Source: Cystobasidium ongulense
Lineage: Eukaryota; Basidiomycota; Cystobasidiomycetes; Cystobasidiales; Cystobasidiaceae
Assembly: GCA_022835595.1 (NCBI GenBank)
Contig: BQUP01000002.1
Span: 806,001 to 870,000 of the forward strand
Length of the DNA: 64,000 nt
Reading direction: 5' to 3'
In this document: in pieces, positions 31,582-61,184 of the stretch
Numbering within the stretch: the first letter of the stretch is position 1
Layout of the letters: each line of letters starts with the position of its first letter
The notes under the pieces: model-generated
The model's input: the letters and a program-made list of their open reading frames with translations, nothing else
Told to the model about the DNA's origin: nothing
Databases searched by the model: none
Position numbers and translations under genes: made by a program

Positions 31582-34436
31582 CTAATCCGTACCATCCTCC
31601 TTCTTTTCCGCGAATCCAACTGCATTCTGGTCAAAATCAAATGTGGTGTACACATTCTTCAAGAACGAGTCGCCCATGATCCAAGAATTGACACCGACGT
31701 CCATGCCTACTACAGATCCGACGCATCTGTGCGAGCCGGAAGCCGTAGAGCCAAGATTGAGTGTATCTGCATCCATCTCCCACTTCTTGCCTCCGAAAGC
31801 AAAGCTTACATCTGGTACGCTGTCGCAAGGGAAAGTGTAGTAGCCGCCAGCATAAGGTTGAGAATCTGGTACCTTGCTCCAGAACGCTTCAGCTTCTGCA
31901 GGGGGAGCGACTACAACTGTAGTGCCTGTGTCGATGATAGCATAGAAGTCTTCATTTGCTTTGTTGTTGTCGACGAAAGCATCACCTTCGAGTACCCAGT
32001 AGCTTTCTGAAAGTACATCATGCCACTCGACATCCCCTTGATACTTGTCCGAATTTGCTCCACCGAGGTAGAGTTCTGAGCCAGACCCAGAATTGAGCGA
32101 AAAGGAGAATTGCGGCTTTGCGACGGCTCCATCTTGCATAAGAGTTTGGAAGAATGGCTTTTCTTTCAGAGTCGAAATGCTTTCGTAACCCATTCCCATT
32201 ATACCATCTTGAGGGTCATCTGCGAATGAGTTCGATAGTTCCGTAGCGACACCGATGGCTTGGTTTTGAGCTGTTACTCCGCCAACAGTGACTGTGTCGG
32301 TATAGATTTTGCCCTTGGTTGAACTGCCATCGCCGTATTCGATATCGAGAGAACCGCTCTGCAACTTGGAAGAGGAGGATTCCGCCGGATTGTACTTGTT
32401 GTGGCTTGCACAAGCACTTGTATCACAGGAAGATGATGGAACCCATGTATCGGCAGATCCAGTATCAAAGTCGAGAACAAAGTCTTGTGCAGGAGTACCG
32501 ATCTTGACGGGACCTGCCCAGAGCAAATCATCGTTGTAGCTTTTGAGGCTGACTCCAGCTCGTCGATTACCCCTGGTCAGACTGAGCTTCTCTTGTCTCT
32601 TGGCAAGATGATCTTCTTTCTCGGCCAATTCGTCTTCATTGAGGCGCTCACTATTGAACAGCGGCTTGCCGGTTCGCTTTTGGTAGGCTATAGCACCTTT
32701 CTGATATTTAATGCTGATGTGATCAAGATGTGCCTAATAGAACGCAAGATGAGAGTTAGTTATTTGTAGATGGCGACATCAAAAGAAAGTGAGCTTGCCT
32801 GGGCTTTGTCCATATCAACTACACCATCCGTCTTCAAAGGCGCACCAGCTCTCTTGAATAGCGGAATGGCTGTTCCGACATTCTCGCTAGCTTGAGAAGA
32901 GGAAGCCTCTTCGACCTGTTCGCTTGACTCTGCTTCAACATCTGCAATAGGTTCGACGGTGGGTGCGGCGATGAAGGCCTTTCTATTAGGTAGCGAAGAG
33001 GGATCTAGAGATCGTCTGCTTCGGCGAAGAGCTGCAGCTGGAGGAGCGTCTTCATCTTCTTCAACTGATTTCTCCTTGACCTTGGACTCTTTCGGCTGGA
33101 TGAAAGCTTTTCTGTTAGGCAAGGAGGAGGGCTCCACGGACCGTCTGGCTTGTAGCAGTGCAGCGGGTGAAGGTGGTGTAGCGACATGCTCAACTTCTTT
33201 GACCGATAATTGTTCGATCTCTAAATCGTCAGGATGAATGAAGGCTTTCCTGTTGGGTAGAGAAGCAGGATTGAAGGTCCTTCTGTCCAGAGGAGCGGCA
33301 GGAGCGGGAGCGGGAGGGAATGTATAAGCTTTAGCAGCGATTCTAGAAGCTGATTCTTCGAAGTGAGCTGGATCGGGATGAATGAATGCCTTTCTATTGG
33401 GTACGAAGAAAGGGTTGAAATCCCTTTTCTCAGCTGCTGGAGTAGCTGGGAAAGTGTAAGTGCTGAAACTTGGAATATCATGCATCGTAATCTTGATCTC
33501 GGCATCTTCAGCTTCAGGTGCTACATAGGCTTTGCGATTTGGAAGGCTTGATGGGAGAACCTTAGGGGCGGGAGTATCGCGCTTCTCGAGCTCATCTTCT
33601 CGGGGCACGATGAAAGCCTTTCGGTTTGGAAGATTGACAGGGAGGACTTTAGGTGCAATTGCATCGCGCTTCTCTACATCTTGTGCTTGAGGAGCAATGA
33701 AAGCCTTCCTGTTAGGTAGGTTGACAGGAAGCACTTTCGCTTCCTCTACATCCCGTCTCTCAACCATCTCTTCTGGCTCGGCGACAAAGGCCTTGCGATT
33801 GGGTAAAGAAGCAGGATTGACTTGAGCAGGGCCAGAAACGGATCGTCTTTCGGGAGTAGTCAATCCAGAAGGCGTCATTGATCTCTTACGAGCTGCCACT
33901 ATATCAGCTGGATTGGCCAAACTGCTTCGTCGCAGAGGTTGGTTGCCAGCATTATCGATGAGGGATCTCTTCCGAGCAGCGAAGATATCGTTTGCTACTG
34001 AGCTGCGACGAGACTCTTCTGGTGTACCTGGTACGGATAGGCCGCCGTCTGCGATTGATCTTCGGCGCGAGTTGGCGATGTCTTGTGGAGCTGCCAAGGA
34101 GGATCTTCTAGCAGGCGAGGAGGCATCAACGACCGAAGAGCGTCGGCGGGCATTCGCGATATCCATAGGGGAAGCACCGGAGCTTCGTCTAGCTAGATCT
34201 CCAGAAGCATCGGGAATGAGTGATCGTCTACGAGATGCCATGACATCCTCGGCAGTTGAACCTCGTCGAGAGTGAGAAAGTTCCTCGGTTGTCGAACCTC
34301 GGCGGGAAGGAGGACCAGAGCGTGGTGCCATGTCATCGTCTACAACCGAGCCTCGCCGGATAGGAGCAGCTTGGGTGTGACCTGCAAAGAGGACGGCTGC
34401 TGTAAAAGCTGTAGAAACGAGAGTAGGAGTGTGCAT
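31582..34436 (-). CDS. Secreted A1 aspartic protease with a long dibasic repeat region (KEP-like)
   Basis: Two exons, 34436-32799 and 32733-31582, together 929 residues. Residues 1-23 are a signal peptide ending at an Ala-Ala-Pro site. Residues about 25-200 hold some 13 copies of a short RR(R/S/G)S unit; residues about 205-490 hold eight copies of a PNRKAF(I/V) unit, each generally preceded by a KR or RR dibasic site. A normal pepsin propeptide (AHLDHISIKYQKGAIAYQ) follows, then the mature protease. Both catalytic aspartates are present, in DFDTGSADTW and AIIDTGTTVV, and Cys pairs lie near SSSCDTSAC and in FPCDSVPD/HRCVG. The intron between the exons has a GC donor (GCAAGC) and removes it in phase 0. 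The second exon has no ATG before the protease, so it depends on the first for secretion. The protease call is firm; the peptide-precursor reading is inference. Confidence 0.88.
32960..33830 (-). repeat. Eight PNRKAF repeats within the protease gene
   Basis: Protein-level tandem repeats. The constant core is (S/N)LPNRKAF(I/V), with one FV and one KAY variant. Spacing is about 25-45 residues. The first four units are the most alike (APKVLP..LPNRKAFIAP plus an acidic stretch and KRD); later units diverge. KRD, RRD, RRS or RRT precedes most copies. Confidence 0.9.
33840..34360 (-). repeat. RRxS repeats within the protease gene
   Basis: About 13 copies of (S/A)RR(R/S/G)S spaced 10-20 residues, with intervening acidic or Ala/Pro-rich linkers such as PQDIANSRRRS. 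Distinct in sequence from the PNRKAF block but also punctuated by dibasic pairs. Confidence 0.85.
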
Positions 34437-36020: not shown

Positions 36021-38309
36021 TTACGCACCCCCACATTGGTTACCATGAACAAGCTTACTAGGATCCTTAGGTATCCAGCCATATTCAACGCCCTTCTTAT
36101 AGCTCCACTCGTCTGCACTTTCAGTTTTCCAAGCCCATTGGATCCATCCAGAAGCAGTTTCGAATACCTCGACTTGTACCTCCCAGTATTTACCTAAGAA
36201 AGTCTTGAACTCTTCACTAAATGTATCTGCACTTCCAGTTTTACCTTTGCAGGATCCGATTGCTTTACTTCCGGGATATGTGCCATCATAGCGTGAACCG
36301 ACACCAGCGCCTGTTTGCCGTTTCAGTCAAGATGAGAACATACGTCAGCTCGACTCGGTTTAGCTGAGCGACAAAAGTTGGGAAGACGAACGCGTACCGT
36401 TGAGCTTGGCGGCGCAGTCTATGAAAGGTGAGTTAGAGAAGTAATCGTCAGTAGATGTATGATTCAGTATACTGAAAACGCGTTTTTCTTCTCACCAGTG
36501 TTCGCAGGCGTCCATTCACCGACCATGGTCCAAATATCCTTGTTCGACTCGACAAGGCCAGCTTTACTCTTGCAGACAGCCTTGATGCGATCATCGTCGC
36601 TCATCCTAAGGTCGTTCTCATTGAAGATGGAATAGTCTGCACGCGAAAAGGGTCAGCCAGAGCTGCGTTATGCTCTACCATCTCGACCTGCTTAGGGTAA
36701 CATACAATGGGTGTCGAGCATGACTCTGCGCCATGATGGACTGGGCATGAAGCCTTTCCATGTCGAAAGAGGCTGGAAGGCATCGTGTATGCTGGAGCAT
36801 AATCAAAGAATCAGCAAGAGTTCCCTGAACAATGATGATGCAGCCAGTTTGAATGAGAACTCACACGACAAGCGTATCCGCAGCAGCCTTTGCATTCTCC
36901 GCCTTCTTGGAGTATCTGACTTGACCATATCCATCATAATAATATTGTTTAACAGTATCAACCATCTTCTGACCAATAAAACCAGCAGGTTCATTTAATA
37001 GCTCAATAGCAGTAACAGTATTACTATATTCAATACTACCAAAATCATTAATCATAGTTTGTAGAACAGCTCTTGTCCTATTGACATTTTCGCCGGTGCC
37101 ATCATCATGCCAGTGAATAGAGCCCCTTCTTCCTGAATTATCAAAACCATTCTGTGATCCTGGTGCTCCATGTATGTCTATTATCACTTTCAATCCATAT
37201 TTAGCTGACCATTCTACTGCTTTGAATAGGTAGGGGTACTGTCCCTGTGGATATGGTTCTCCTTTCGATGTATCCAAAGCCCAGTATCCTATTGGAATAC
37301 GAACATGATTCAGACCATACGATGCGATGGTCGCAAAGTCATCTTCCGTCACCCAAGTATCCCAGTGGTTCTTGAGTCTCTTCGCAGCTTCTTCAGCCCC
37401 ATATTTGGCTCCGTAGGTATATTCGTCTACGACTGCATCGTCGCCGGTATCCGTGAAGATAGATGGGGTGATCCAAGGTTCGACTGTGAACGTCGACGAA
37501 ATACGTTGCATCCGTTAGACGAGGAATCTGTAATTACAAGAGAAAAGAGAGGACAAACTTACGAACAAGCCATCCACCGATATTTACACCTCTCACAGGC
37601 TGCTTGGCATAATCAAAACTCTCAATCCCTTTCTTCTCAAGCTGCCTTCTCGCATATCCCCTCGATGCACCAAATAGAGCTCTACTACTATCTTCTTCAA
37701 CAAATTCCTTTCTTGGCACGATAGCAGAAGCTTTCAAATGAACTGGAGTATTGGTCTTGGCTTTCCATTTTCCTTGAGGCATGGCAGCTCGTTTATCATA
37801 TTGACCATCTTTATTTGAAAATTGAGCTGAACCACCATTTACTCTCATTAGACTTGAAGAGGCTTCATCATGGGTATGCTGCCATGATGATGGTGAAGAA
37901 GAAGAACGCTTCAATCGCTCAGTCGGTTTCTCAGATTTGCCTCCTGGTGAACCGCCTGATGCAGCTAAGAGATTGGGATATGCTTGCTTTGCTAGTTGAT
38001 CGTTCTGCTCTCTGGCTTGTGCTAATTTATCAGGAGGCGGATCAGGAGCCAGGAGGGTGCCTGGATGTCCACAAACAATCGAATAGTAAGTGAGTGAAAG
38101 TTCATCGATGATGTGCGAATCGAGGGAAAGGTCAACTCACTGTCCTGCTTTGCAGTCCATTCAGGCGCGCCACCACCATCGCGCTTAGTGAAAGCTAAAT
38201 GACCCTTTGGTTTCAGACGAGGTAGCAAGCCAGCTTGTACCGTGGTAGTCGATGCGTCCAAGAGACAAGGTAGCGTGGCTAGTATGAGGGCGGCAGTGTG
38301 GATCTTCAT
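36021..38309 (-). CDS. Exo-beta-1,3-glucanase, GH5 family
   Basis: Secreted glucan 1,3-beta-glucosidase that trims cell-wall beta-1,3-glucan. Seven exons on the minus strand. It starts with a signal peptide (MKIHTAALILATLPCLLDAS). About 170 Ser/Lys-rich residues with several KR pairs precede the catalytic barrel, which opens at [20 protein letters not shown]. Family landmarks: YGLNHVRIPIGYWAL, the IIDIHGAPGSQNG loop, acid/base Glu in AIELLNEPAG, HDAFQPL, and nucleophile Glu in TMVGEWTPA. One exon is only 21 nt (36418-36398, DCAAKLN). It ends DPSKLVHGNQCGGA after a GWIQWAWKTESADEW segment. All catalytic residues are present. The long N-terminal linker is unusual compared with yeast Exg1. Confidence 0.93.
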
Positions 38310-39318: not shown

Positions 39319-41556
39319 ATGGACTTTCTACGCCTATCTCGCTCGCGCAGTGGCTCGTCGGGGAACAAGAAATCTCGCTCCCCTCTGCCCAGTCCTCCTC
39401 GTGGTCAACTCTCGGCAGCAGCGGATGACCAGGACCATGGCCCGTCAAGCGGTGGTGGTCCAAGTCATGCAGGTCACGCCTCCGATCAGGCGCAGCGTGC
39501 AAGGAAAGGCAGCAGCACCAGCAACAACAGCAGCAACATGAGCAGCATAGCGGCACTGATAAGGTCTACCTCTGTTGCTACTGACCTCGACGACGCGGGC
39601 AGGTCTCCAGCAGAGCCGCATCATGGCTCACTTTCCCAAGCTCCTCTCGAATGCACCTTTCCATCTCTTCTCTCCCCGCCAAACCCAGCATTCGTCTCTG
39701 GCAGCGAGGCTCGCGGCATTCTCATCAAGTGAGTGGACACAGGATTCTTCTGATACACTGACTGCCTGCCTGATGCGATACTTCCCCCATTGCTCCCTGC
39801 TCCTCCTCACAGCGCTCGAAGACCTTCGCTTCAAGATGGGATGGTCCAGACCCGATCAGCATTTGCCACCACTATACCAGCAAAGCGCTCCAGCAATACT
39901 CCCGCCGCGACTCTTGCACCACGACCACCGCATCTACGTTCGTCAGTTTCCTCAGACTCGATACTCAAGACGACCACAGCTGCCTCGACTTCGACTTCGG
40001 CGACCGCAACCGACGAGCGTGGCAGAGGGCGGATACGTTTCGCCCCATTACCGGACCCGAGAAGACCTAGAAGCTATAGTACAGGTCGAGATATCTGGTT
40101 TGACGATGATGCAGAGAATCATGTACATATAAATACCAGGGACGGAAGCGATGTGACTCCTGGTTCATGGTCCAGTAGTGGGAGTGGAAAAGTTGGGCTT
40201 GGCAGCACGAATGGCTCATCTGCTCAATCAAACTCGCTAGCTATGAGCTTGGGCGATGGTCTAAATGATGACTATTCACTCAGTCCTGGGAACGAAAGCA
40301 AACAAGCATCTCATAAACGGACTTCAAGCACCCTATCCAAACTACTTCAACCCCTCAAACTCGGTCGCTCGAAATCAAGGGAAAGTGATAAGCCTAATAG
40401 TCCGGATAGCGATAGCAATCGCTTGTCACTTTCACTTTCAACCTCTCCTAGCACTTCATTGTCCCATTGGATGAATGGGGGCGAGCCTCTGAGTCGAAGT
40501 ATAAGTACAGGAGCAGGATCAGCAGATATAGAAATACGACGCAAAGAAGAATTCAAATCATCAGGAGTACCTTTGAAGAAATCTTCAACCCAAGAAAGTC
40601 AGAAACAACAACCTACTAGAAGGATATTGTATCCTTCAGTAGCCCAAGGTGGTGTCAGAAAAAGAGATATTAGAACTGTAAAACCTGTTAAAGAACCTGA
40701 ATTTGTGGAATGGACTAATCCATCAGCTAGGACTGGAATGAATGGATCTCAGCAAGATGACGATGATGATGGTACTGGAATGGCTTGGTTGAAGAAAAGA
40801 AGAGCTGAGAGAGAAAGGAAAGCGAAAGAAGAGGCTGCTGCTGCTGCTGCTGCTGCTGCTATAGCTAAGAGCGCGGATGTAAAGTCTGAAGAATCGCAAA
40901 AGATCGAAGCCAAAGAAACGACACTCGATACATCGACAGACGAGGAAGATGCTAGTAATACGCTTGATAACGGTCAAGCCATGCCAGGCATCATCGTGGA
41001 TAACAGCGAAACGATGGCTTCAGTCAACCATGATCAGCCAGAGTTGGACACGCAAGAGGACATAGCGTCGGAAGACAAGAGCTTAGATGGAAGTGCAGTG
41101 CTCCATGATGTCGCTCAGGAGAATGATGAGGAGGACGATGGTAAGCTTTATCGTCTGCTGTTAAGTTTCAATGACGTGCGTCATACTAAATCCAACTTAT
41201 TCGGTGTTTCTGCAGATTCAGCCAGCGATTTGGACGATGAAGAGGAGATTCAAGACGATTTATCAGCCGCAGAAATTGAGGAGGAAGATAGACTAGCAGA
41301 AGAAGCGCGTCGTACCACGGGAGGCGCTTCACGAGAACTATACCACTCTCATGAACATCAAGCTTCCACTTATACATTTGAAGCCCCTCCACTACAACGT
41401 CGGGTTTCATCACGTGCAAACAGTCTTAATATACCAACAAACTTTGATAGAACAGTATCATACTCTTCTCTCAAATCGGACATGCCTAGATCTATGGCTA
41501 ATTCACACCCGGGGGATTGGCCTGTCCTTGATCAAGCAGTAGTGCCACCTTGCTAG
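39319..41556 (+). CDS. Uncharacterised Ser-rich disordered protein with RIRFAPLPDP motif
   Basis: Three exons: 39319-39729, about 39814-41140 and 41216-41556. No folded domain is recognisable. The protein opens MDFLRLSRSRSGSSGNKKS and is rich in Ser, Arg and acidic runs. Around codon 215 there is GRIRFAPLPDPRR; RIRF fits a loose PP1-docking [RK]-[VI]-x-F pattern. A coiled-coil segment with a ten-residue Ala run (from a GCT repeat at 40830-40860) lies near WLKKRRAERERKAKEEA. The tail has QRRVSSRANSLNIPTNF. The last intron (41141-41215, 75 nt) has no stop in frame, so its retention would simply add 25 residues. A signalling or polarity scaffold is possible; function unknown. Confidence 0.75.
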
Positions 41557-59277: not shown

Positions 59278-61184
59278 TCACAACTTGACTTCCTCTAACT
59301 GCTCATCACTCGTTCCATCCACCTTTTCAAGCTCATCAGAGGTGTGATCACTCTCTTTCGTCGGTTCGCCATCTGTAGCTTTGGCATCGCCTTCCAGTTC
59401 ATTATTTGCGCGAATGGCGTTTGCTTCGTCGTTCAGGGCTATCGTTTCGGTTGCTGTGGGAGGTTCATATTCCTTCTCTGGAGCCGGGATCGAGGGGATA
59501 TCTGTATCTGCTGAATCTTTGTCTTCCGCCTCTATTGGCTCTGACTTCATAATTGCAGGCTCGACGTCGTCCTGCAATGTCGAAGCTACTTCAGTCGGTG
59601 ACGACGATTCTGTTGCAAGAGGCTCTGCCGCTTCCTGGGAGAAGACCTCTGCTTCCGCTGCCAGCGGAACTGCTTCTTCGATATGTTCCTGTTCGGCTTC
59701 TAGTTGGGCATCCGACTCTGACTCTGCCTCTGCTTCCACTGTCTCCGTTTCAAGCTCTGCGTCCGATTCGAGGTCGGGCTCTTGTGCTTCGACTTCGGGG
59801 AGTGCGGTAGGAGCTAGCTCCATTTGAGGCGGCACTGCGTCTTCCGTGCTCGAAACGTCGACTTCGGGGAGTACTGTCGGGGCTAGCTCAATTTCAGACG
59901 GTACTATGTCTTCCGAGCTCGGAACATCGACTTCAGGGAGTACTGTCGGGGCTAGCTCAACTTGAGTCGGCATTGTAGCCTCGGCACCCGAAGCCTGAGG
60001 AGGTTGCGCGTCCGGTAAAGGATCTGCAGCTGGAACTTCCGGGGAGTTTTTCGGTGGAGGAGGCTTCTGGAGCTGAATAGGCTCTCGCGGACCATTTCTA
60101 GGTTGCTGAGGCGGATGTTCCTGCGATTTCACCGATGCGTTCTTGCCCAAGCTCACAGATGATGAAGGTCCTCCACTGATAGCTGCTTTGTCAAGAGTAT
60201 ATGCTGAGATAGGTACCATACGCTTCTCTCGTAGACAGGCTAGTATCCAGGCGGGTTGTACTATTGGAATTGACAGCTGAGAAGCTCGCTGATACTCCTG
60301 ACCTGGATCTGGCGCGTCTTGTGGTGACTCATTTGGAGGAGCAAGCGCCGGTGGAGGGCCAGATGGATGCGTACATACGAAGTGGGTGGTCTCTATCTGG
60401 ATTCGCGTTGACCAGCGAGCGCGCATTTGAGTCAAGGCTTCTCTAGCTTCATCGAGAAGCTCGGGCGAGTCGATGGCACCGAAGCAGACTGAAATACCCG
60501 ACGTATCCGCAAGAGTCAAGGTCCTAGTCTTGATTGTTTGCGAGGCGTATGTGCCTGCCGTTGTTCGCAGGATGAGGTGGAAGCTGTACGGGGCATCAAC
60601 GTCCAGTCCGCTGACCTTTGTCGACGTGTTGTTGAGTGGGTTTGGTATTGCGGCGAGCCTTTGCCCGTTCCTCCATATCGTCAGAGACAATAGCTTGGAA
60701 GTAGCAAGGTCTAGCTTGTCCCATTCTAGCGTTACTGAAGTCTGCGTGACATTGCGAAGCCGTAATCTTGGAGGGGAAGGCGACCGCTCGCCAAAGGCTG
60801 CCATGATCTCATCTTGCAGGTCCCAGAACTCGTCGTTGCGCTTTTGCTCCTCCTTCTGATTGCGAGTACATGATATGGATATCACAGAACCAGTCGTGCA
60901 TCCAGCTGGAAGGAGTATCGATGGGAACTCGATGCAGTGTATCTGTTGATGCGTCGTTGGCAGAAACGGGCCAATATCAGCGCACTGCGGCTCGAGACTT
61001 ACAGGCACGACAGAGCACTACACACCTGATCTGATATGAGAACTGCTTGACCCGCGTCTATTTTGCTGACGGTGTACGTCGTTGGAGGCTCGGCCTGCTG
61101 CTTGCCCTTGAGCTTCGCATTGCCGCTGGAGCGCTTGCTTGCTTTGGAGGACGTCGACAACGTGGAGATTCCAAGACCTTCCAT
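59278..61184 (-). CDS. CHS5: Exomer scaffold Chs5 (FN3-BRCT)
   Basis: Core of the exomer coat that carries chitin synthase Chs3 and similar cargo from the trans-Golgi to the surface. Two exons on the minus strand; the first (MEGLGISTLSTSSKASKR ... VLISDQ) joins IHCIEFPSILLPAGCTTGSV in phase 0 at an intron from about 61023. The N-terminal Chs5 domain is followed by the FN3 region (PPRLRLRNVTQTSVTLEWDK, LAAIPNPLNNTSTKVSGLDV) and the BRCT domain (ISVCFGAIDSPELLDEA, THFVCTHP, IPIVQPAWILACLREKR). The C-terminal half is acidic and repetitive and contains a ~23-residue tandem repeat (ELAPTVLPEVDVPSSED) three times at 59796-59975. Yeast Chs5 also has a long acidic tail, so the layout is expected. Confidence 0.94.
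59796..59975 (-). repeat. Three copies of a 69-nt repeat in CHS5
   Basis: Tandem units encode (V/I/M)ELAPT(V/A)LPEV(D/E)..., nearly identical at DNA level in the two units nearest 59880-59975. In-frame length is 23 residues per unit, so copy changes would leave the frame intact. Confidence 0.85.

Follow-up and report, generated by a model that had tools for sequence, protein, structure and literature searches.

A predicted Cystobasidium ongulense polyprotein that probably joins a Kex2-type repeat precursor to an aspartic protease

The window analyzed here is a stretch of 64,000 nucleotides from Cystobasidium ongulense (GenBank assembly GCA_022835595.1, contig BQUP01000002.1, positions 806,001 to 870,000 of the forward strand). 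On its minus strand, positions 31582..34436 hold a gene that predicts a signal-like N-terminus, a long array of repeats and an aspartic protease in a single chain. All coordinates below are positions in the window and all features of this gene lie on the minus strand. As originally predicted, the gene has two exons, running from an ATG at 34436 to a stop codon at 31582 and encoding 929 residues. Exon 1 (32799..34436, 546 residues) carries the signal-like N-terminus, the repeats and the start of a pro-segment, and exon 2 (31582..32733, 383 residues plus the stop) carries the remainder of the pro-segment and the protease. The 65-nt intron between them (32734..32798) has the donor GCAAGC, a branch-like CTAAC and the acceptor TAG, and its removal joins the exons in frame.

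An alternative GT donor at 32822, used with the same acceptor, would give an 89-nt intron, also in frame, and a protein eight residues shorter (921 aa). The two donors scored equally in a crude donor scoring. We prefer the GC donor in the model because it is preceded by CAG and continues AAG, whereas the GT donor is preceded by GGT and reads GTAGTT. The fusion of repeats to protease is in frame with either donor. The first Met of exon 2 taken alone is its residue 179 (protein residue 725), which lies within the protease; the protease is therefore predicted to depend on the start codon and signal of exon 1, and exon 2 as it stands is, on the predicted frames, no separate secreted gene. The proposed joining of the exon 1 repeats to the exon 2 protease is upheld by the gene model. 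If the intron were retained, an in-frame stop within it would leave an open frame of 558 residues containing the repeats only. Weak GC-AG introns are often regulated.

Residues 1-23 (34368..34436) are signal-like as judged by hydropathy only, with the end of the signal set by eye. The best 12-residue Kyte-Doolittle mean is 2.07, starting at residue 6, compared with maxima of 1.32 in residues 41-600 and 1.66 in the protease. The 505 residues that follow (25-529) are punctuated by KR and RR pairs and fall into two blocks, a structure on which the original prediction was silent. Block 1 (residues 24-198, 33843..34367) consists of a stub, APIRR, and 12 short fragments separated by RR, RRR or RKR. 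Block 2 (residues 199-529, 32850..33842) consists of eight longer fragments with one PNRKA[FY] core apiece. The repeats are rich in Pro and Ser and of low complexity, contain neither Cys nor Trp, and have only three Tyr in residues 25-529; all eight block 2 fragments are net acidic. No N-x-S/T glycosylation site occurs anywhere in the 929-residue protein.

The dibasic sites are far more numerous than composition would give. Residues 25-531 contain 25 [KR]R sites, about threefold above the mean of 5000 shuffles (8.2, sd 2.5, maximum 17), in line with the 500 or so KR/RR-punctuated residues that had been claimed, and residues 606-929 of the protease contain none. Among ten open reading frames (ORFs) of at least 300 aa, the density per 100 aa was 4.32 in the exon 1 ORF, 0.78 in exon 2 and 0.26-1.83 in the eight others. 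The Arg codons within the dibasic sites are a mix of CGN and AGR. Cutting after every [KR]R up to residue 529 would yield the stub API, 12 block 1 fragments of 10-16 aa and eight block 2 fragments of 27-52 aa, or 21 fragments in all when single residues are left out of the count. Mutual likeness within block 2 is strong, with a summed local alignment score of 1789 compared with 628 +/- 26 (maximum 713) in 300 shuffles.

The eight cores lie at 33786..33803, 33699..33716, 33612..33629, 33525..33542, 33384..33401, 33240..33257, 33102..33119 and 32973..32990 (cores 1 to 8). The predicted number of copies was correct, although only seven read PNRKAF and core 4 reads PNRKAY. No further PNRKA[FY] core occurs in any of the six reading frames across the window. 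Each core occupies a separate KR/RR interval, an arrangement with a chance of 0.006 given eight random cuts and 0.001 given seven. Conservation extends beyond the hexamer: Pro stands four residues before the core in 8/8 copies, the residue before it is L in seven and V in one, and the residue after it is I in six and V in two, giving the extended element P-x-x-[LV]-P-N-R-K-A-[FY]-[IV].

At the DNA level the 18-base core strings are all distinct (8/8). Over the 28 pairs of copies, synonymous differences in the core come to 1.01 per synonymous site and nonsynonymous differences to 0.04 per nonsynonymous site, a ratio (pN/pS) of 0.04. The same ratio is 1.06, 0.51, 0.68 and 0.69 in four flanking codon sextets compared in fixed register and ungapped, where the outer sextets partly pair unrelated positions since fragment heads vary in length. 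Because its silent sites are saturated while its amino-acid-changing sites hardly differ, the core is kept for its protein sequence. Since the repeat copies share descent, these counts and lengths cannot be treated as independent of one another.

Behind the repeats lies a putative pro-segment (residues 530-604, 32560..32849), split by the intron and bearing KR or RR at residues 565, 591 and 603. It had been described as a normal pepsin propeptide; its place and its size of 75 residues agree with that description, while it matched neither a PDB chain nor, with its two exon parts scanned separately, any Pfam family. The mature A1 aspartic protease is predicted to comprise residues 605-929 (31585..32559). 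Exon 2 matches Pfam Asp (PF00026) with an E-value of 1.4e-84 over profile positions 3-314 of 315, and it has two DTG motifs with the catalytic residues D636 (32464-32466) and D814 (31930-31932), a flap-type Tyr679 and four Cys. These features bear out the claim of a complete A1 domain with both active-site Asp residues. The closest of 110 matching PDB sequences was 9uf9_A (E 2.2e-99, 336-residue chain). An AlphaFold model of exon 2 made without an alignment had a mean predicted local distance difference test score (pLDDT) of 32.5. Residues 606-929 contain one Arg and 17 Lys.

To assess where Kex2 might cut, we applied the Saccharomyces cerevisiae Kex2 matrix of PMC2515848 (Table 1) to the basic pairs; this matrix gives a P1 score to Arg alone. 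Up to residue 604, the KR and RR sites had matrix sums of 1.86-3.14. The basic pairs left in the repeats consist mostly of the RK inside each of the eight cores, where Lys is at P1 and the score is 0. Cutting inside PNRKAF was rejected on this score: the RK is probably no cut site, and each core is therefore predicted to remain whole in the released peptide.

These data confirm that a KR/RR-punctuated repeat array and a complete A1 protease stand in one predicted chain. We consider it likely, judging from the encoded protein, that the gene specifies a secreted polyprotein in which a Kex2-processed repeat precursor precedes, in the same chain, a pepsin-type aspartic protease zymogen. This is the interpretation originally put forward, and it is partly supported. 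Its layout is borne out by the gene model (with one of two donors), the dibasic excess, the single core per interval, the core constraint and the A1 domain; secretion, Kex2 cutting, peptide release and protease activity are inferred. In the proposed pathway, Kex2 would cut after KR and RR in the late Golgi and Kex1 would then strip the basic tails from the peptides. The secreted products would be 12 short peptides and eight longer ones, each of the latter bearing one extended element, while cuts within and at the end of the pro-segment would free the protease. Each chain would thus yield about twenty peptides and one protease, an unusual means of combining possible signal peptides with an enzyme. 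Our guess is that the peptides act outside the cell, under conditions that suit an acid protease.

Several observations weigh against this reading. Acidic residues and A, V and L are over-represented after Kex2 cut sites, according to PMC2515848; here such residues follow only 6 of the 25 [KR]R sites (D in four, A in two), and the rest include 13 followed by Ser, three by Gly, two by Thr and one by Gln. This distribution would neither bar nor favour cutting at most block 1 sites, and in four block 2 fragments the first residue is the favoured Asp. Rapid cutting at predicted Kex2 sites was reported in the same paper for about two thirds of the proteins tested (PMC2515848). Strings of the RRxS type are compatible with kinase sites too, although the corresponding Pfam match (CFTR_R, E 0.0086) is below its cut-off and a kinase-site domain was set aside on that ground. 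Likeness among the block 1 fragments is moderate, at 891 compared with 779 +/- 24 (maximum 865, z 4.7) in 300 shuffles, and resides chiefly in two groups: a SSxAxPxDI type at residues 85, 112 and 171, to which a shorter fragment at 145 is related, and fragments starting with GS at 29, 47 and 59. Residues 530-631 match no PDB chain at E 0.001 and a 193-aa stretch gave only three unrelated PDB matches (E 0.49-1.7), though short pro-segments diverge fast. Finally, no homologue was found in viral contigs (exon 1 and exon 2) or prokaryote contigs (exon 2), as expected for a fungal gene. A degenerate pattern for the core gave two single matches in viral contigs, one in a reading frame of 19 residues and the other encoding PNRKA[FY] in no frame, and both were taken as chance.

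Could the repeats be nothing more than an overgrown pro-domain? They would then be a repeat-expanded extension of the pro-segment that Kex2 shreds at activation, with functionless fragments and dibasic sites that serve disposal or folding. The position of the repeats immediately before the pro-segment and the weak conservation among block 1 fragments fit this idea, as does the Kex2 cutting of aspartic protease propeptides described in part of PMC2515848. It sits poorly with a codon constraint that is strong and confined to the core, with the presence of one core in each KR/RR interval, and with the length of the repeats, which at 505 residues far exceed the 75-residue pro-segment behind them; we judge it rather unlikely. 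We give still less credence to a built-in inhibitor, in which PNRKAF would be a pseudosubstrate in the active site of its own protease and the released peptides would restrain the enzyme until diluted or degraded at low pH. This proposal would set a Lys beside the catalytic Asp, the arrangement of pepsinogen. The pro-segment of pepsinogen has a Lys-Tyr-Phe, of which the Lys-Ala-aromatic of the core is reminiscent, and the conserved, multicopy cores do lie beside an enzyme that they could bind. However, the low pLDDT of the exon 2 model gives no structural support to such an interaction and the core-bearing stretch matches no aspartic protease zymogen in the PDB, and we hold this explanation to be improbable.

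Two further explanations question the fusion itself or its processing. The fused protein might be rare or absent, with intron retention giving the repeat-only product and the spliced form giving the protease, so that one locus makes two products under separate control. That the best donor is GC, and that the stop in the intron leaves so long an open frame, speaks for this arrangement; but a full-length protease must include exon 1, since the first possible start in exon 2 is its residue 179, and both donors allow in-frame splicing. We see very little room for it. Even less probable, in our estimation, is an array that escapes processing and stays on the protease as a disordered, basic stalk binding the cell wall or surface. 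Low-complexity repeats rich in Pro and Ser and free of Cys and Trp would suit a stalk, yet KR and RR are the general Kex2 signal and occur threefold above shuffles, while the basic pairs that remain are mostly the core RK.

Within the Kex2-processed precursor that we favour, there is a possible but doubtful additional step: the attached protease may finish its own peptides by cutting the block 2 fragments between F/Y and I/V of KA(F/Y)(I/V). Kex2 would first free the fragments, and the co-released aspartic protease would then leave eight peptides of 13-19 residues ending in [LV]PNRKA[FY]; retention of the GC-AG intron would yield peptides without the finishing protease. The pair of F/Y followed by I/V is present in 8/8 cores, and residues 25-529 contain only one other aromatic-I/V pair. 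The heads, from the dibasic site to F/Y, measure 19, 18, 18, 18, 13, 13, 13 and 13 residues. The tails, counted through the end of the next dibasic pair, measure 11, 11, 11, 34, 35, 33, 27 and 41, and conservation drops shortly past the I/V of the core. A near-fixed head and a variable tail that meet at a pepsin-type bond fit trimming by the attached protease. According to PMC5158083, May1, a secreted A1 protease of Cryptococcus neoformans, favours bonds between hydrophobic residues with Phe at P1. On the other hand, Ile and Val are absent from the May1 preferences named there (Phe, Leu and norleucine), and in the profile of that culture medium positive residues and proline, which both occur near the bond, are disfavoured (PMC5158083). 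The conserved F-I pair may simply be part of the active peptide, and shared ancestry would partly account for the equal head lengths. If the protease does finish the peptides, the precursor would supply the very enzyme that matures it, and a trimming step of a kind that is seldom known would become directly assayable.

To survey the neighbourhood of the gene, 40 of the 78 other ORFs of at least 100 aa were scanned with Pfam. These included a glycoside hydrolase family 5 (GH5) enzyme, a catalase, a protein kinase, an oxoprolinase-type protein and a Brix protein, among others, and none of the 40 was a peptide-modification gene. There were no Rfam matches at gathering scores and no tRNAs by ARAGORN. 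The upstream neighbour on the same strand (36864-38309, minus strand) includes the GH5 ORF (Pfam Cellulase, 1.7e-10). An ATG at 38309 on that strand opens a signal-like sequence, MKIHTAALILATLPCLLDAS, soon followed by AFTKR and then DGGG, with a Kex2-type site between the two; its linkage with the GH5 ORF is a candidate only. At 59789-59972 (minus strand), 69-base tandem units (2.7 copies, 84% matches) encode 23-residue repeats (ELAPTVLPEVDV...) within a Chs5-like ORF that has fn3 and BRCT domains and that marks the gene content as fungal, probably basidiomycete. A perfect (GCT)9 lies at 40834-40860, inside a long open frame (39754-41553, plus strand) with no Pfam match at E 0.01.

How does this gene compare with known systems? 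Kex2-processed repeat proteins (KEPs) occur widely among fungi and the function of most KEP peptides is unknown (PMC9769878). One survey defines KEPs by a signal peptide and no membrane segment, at least four KR/RR fragments of which at least three are similar, and a smallest repeat that, multiplied by the repeat number, makes up at least 15% of the protein (PMC6339444). The predicted protein gives 21 fragments, eight of them with a core, where likeness was judged by local alignment and the shared core and not by FIMO, and its repeats amount to 27 x 8 / 929 = 23% of the length. Another survey looks for at least three tandem repeats of 8-100 aa between Kex2 sites and a score above 0.6 for a 40-aa seed (PMC7329392). 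The array reaches that repeat number and size when KR and RR sites are used; the same source also counts RK and KK as Kex2 sites, which would split every core. More than one type of motif in a KEP is not new, as 77 of 1193 KEPs had two motif types and two had three in the figures given by PMC6339444. The protein resembles KEPs in its signal-like N-terminus, its three or more similar KR/RR-bounded fragments and its share of repeats, and differs from them in that its C-terminal part is a complete A1 protease.

Other Kex2-repeat systems share only part of this organization. Dikaritin precursors, which give ribosomally synthesized and post-translationally modified peptides, and ascomycete alpha-pheromone precursors have the same Kex2-repeat layout. 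An alpha-pheromone precursor was rejected, as A or P is second in 1 of 20 fragments (no STE13 XA/XP pattern) and residues 25-529 lack Trp, and a dikaritin was set aside because the 40 scanned ORFs included no DUF3328 (UstY). Ustilago maydis Rep1 and Candida albicans Ece1 likewise have Kex2-separated repeats and a longer, unlike terminal fragment; in the accessible part of PMC2515848 that fragment is mentioned without an enzyme, and here block 2 is net acidic and the repeats have no Cys or Trp. The protease half is like the secreted fungal A1 enzymes CaSap2 (PMC2515848) and May1 (PMC5158083), so far as these sources describe them, in its pepsin family, its DTG motifs and the dibasic pair ending its pro-segment, and unlike them in the 505 repeat residues ahead of the pro-segment.

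The claim that no protein of this architecture had been described should be qualified. No KEP-protease fusion was described among the matches listed (titles and abstract openings), which is no proof of absence, and the main texts of PMC6339444 and PMC7329392, as distinct from their supplementary lists of 1193 and 7878 proteins, contained no word beginning with aspartic, aspartyl or peptidase. The one literature match for PNRKAF, PMC10917670, is a sorghum RNA-silencing paper in which, going by the title, the string is supposedly a construct name. Among the matches listed, the closest precedent is Coprinopsis cinerea 365456, which has a signal, one Kex2-released peptide found by mass spectrometry and then a GH128 enzyme (PMC9769878). 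Its authors describe the organization as unique and, since repeats are lacking, exclude the protein from the KEPs (PMC9769878). In both proteins a signal sequence, here a signal-like N-terminus, and Kex2-flanked peptide, here a predicted one, stand N-terminal to an enzyme; they differ in that C. cinerea 365456 has a single short non-repeat peptide and a glycoside hydrolase where the present gene has a repeat array and a protease. Having the enzyme in the same chain offers a rare handle: the range of pH at which it works and the bonds it prefers give clues to the site and mode of action of the peptides, and recombinant pieces would allow a test of how peptides and enzyme are linked. Here a true repeat array is joined to an enzyme, with about twenty candidate peptides and a protease predicted from one gene.

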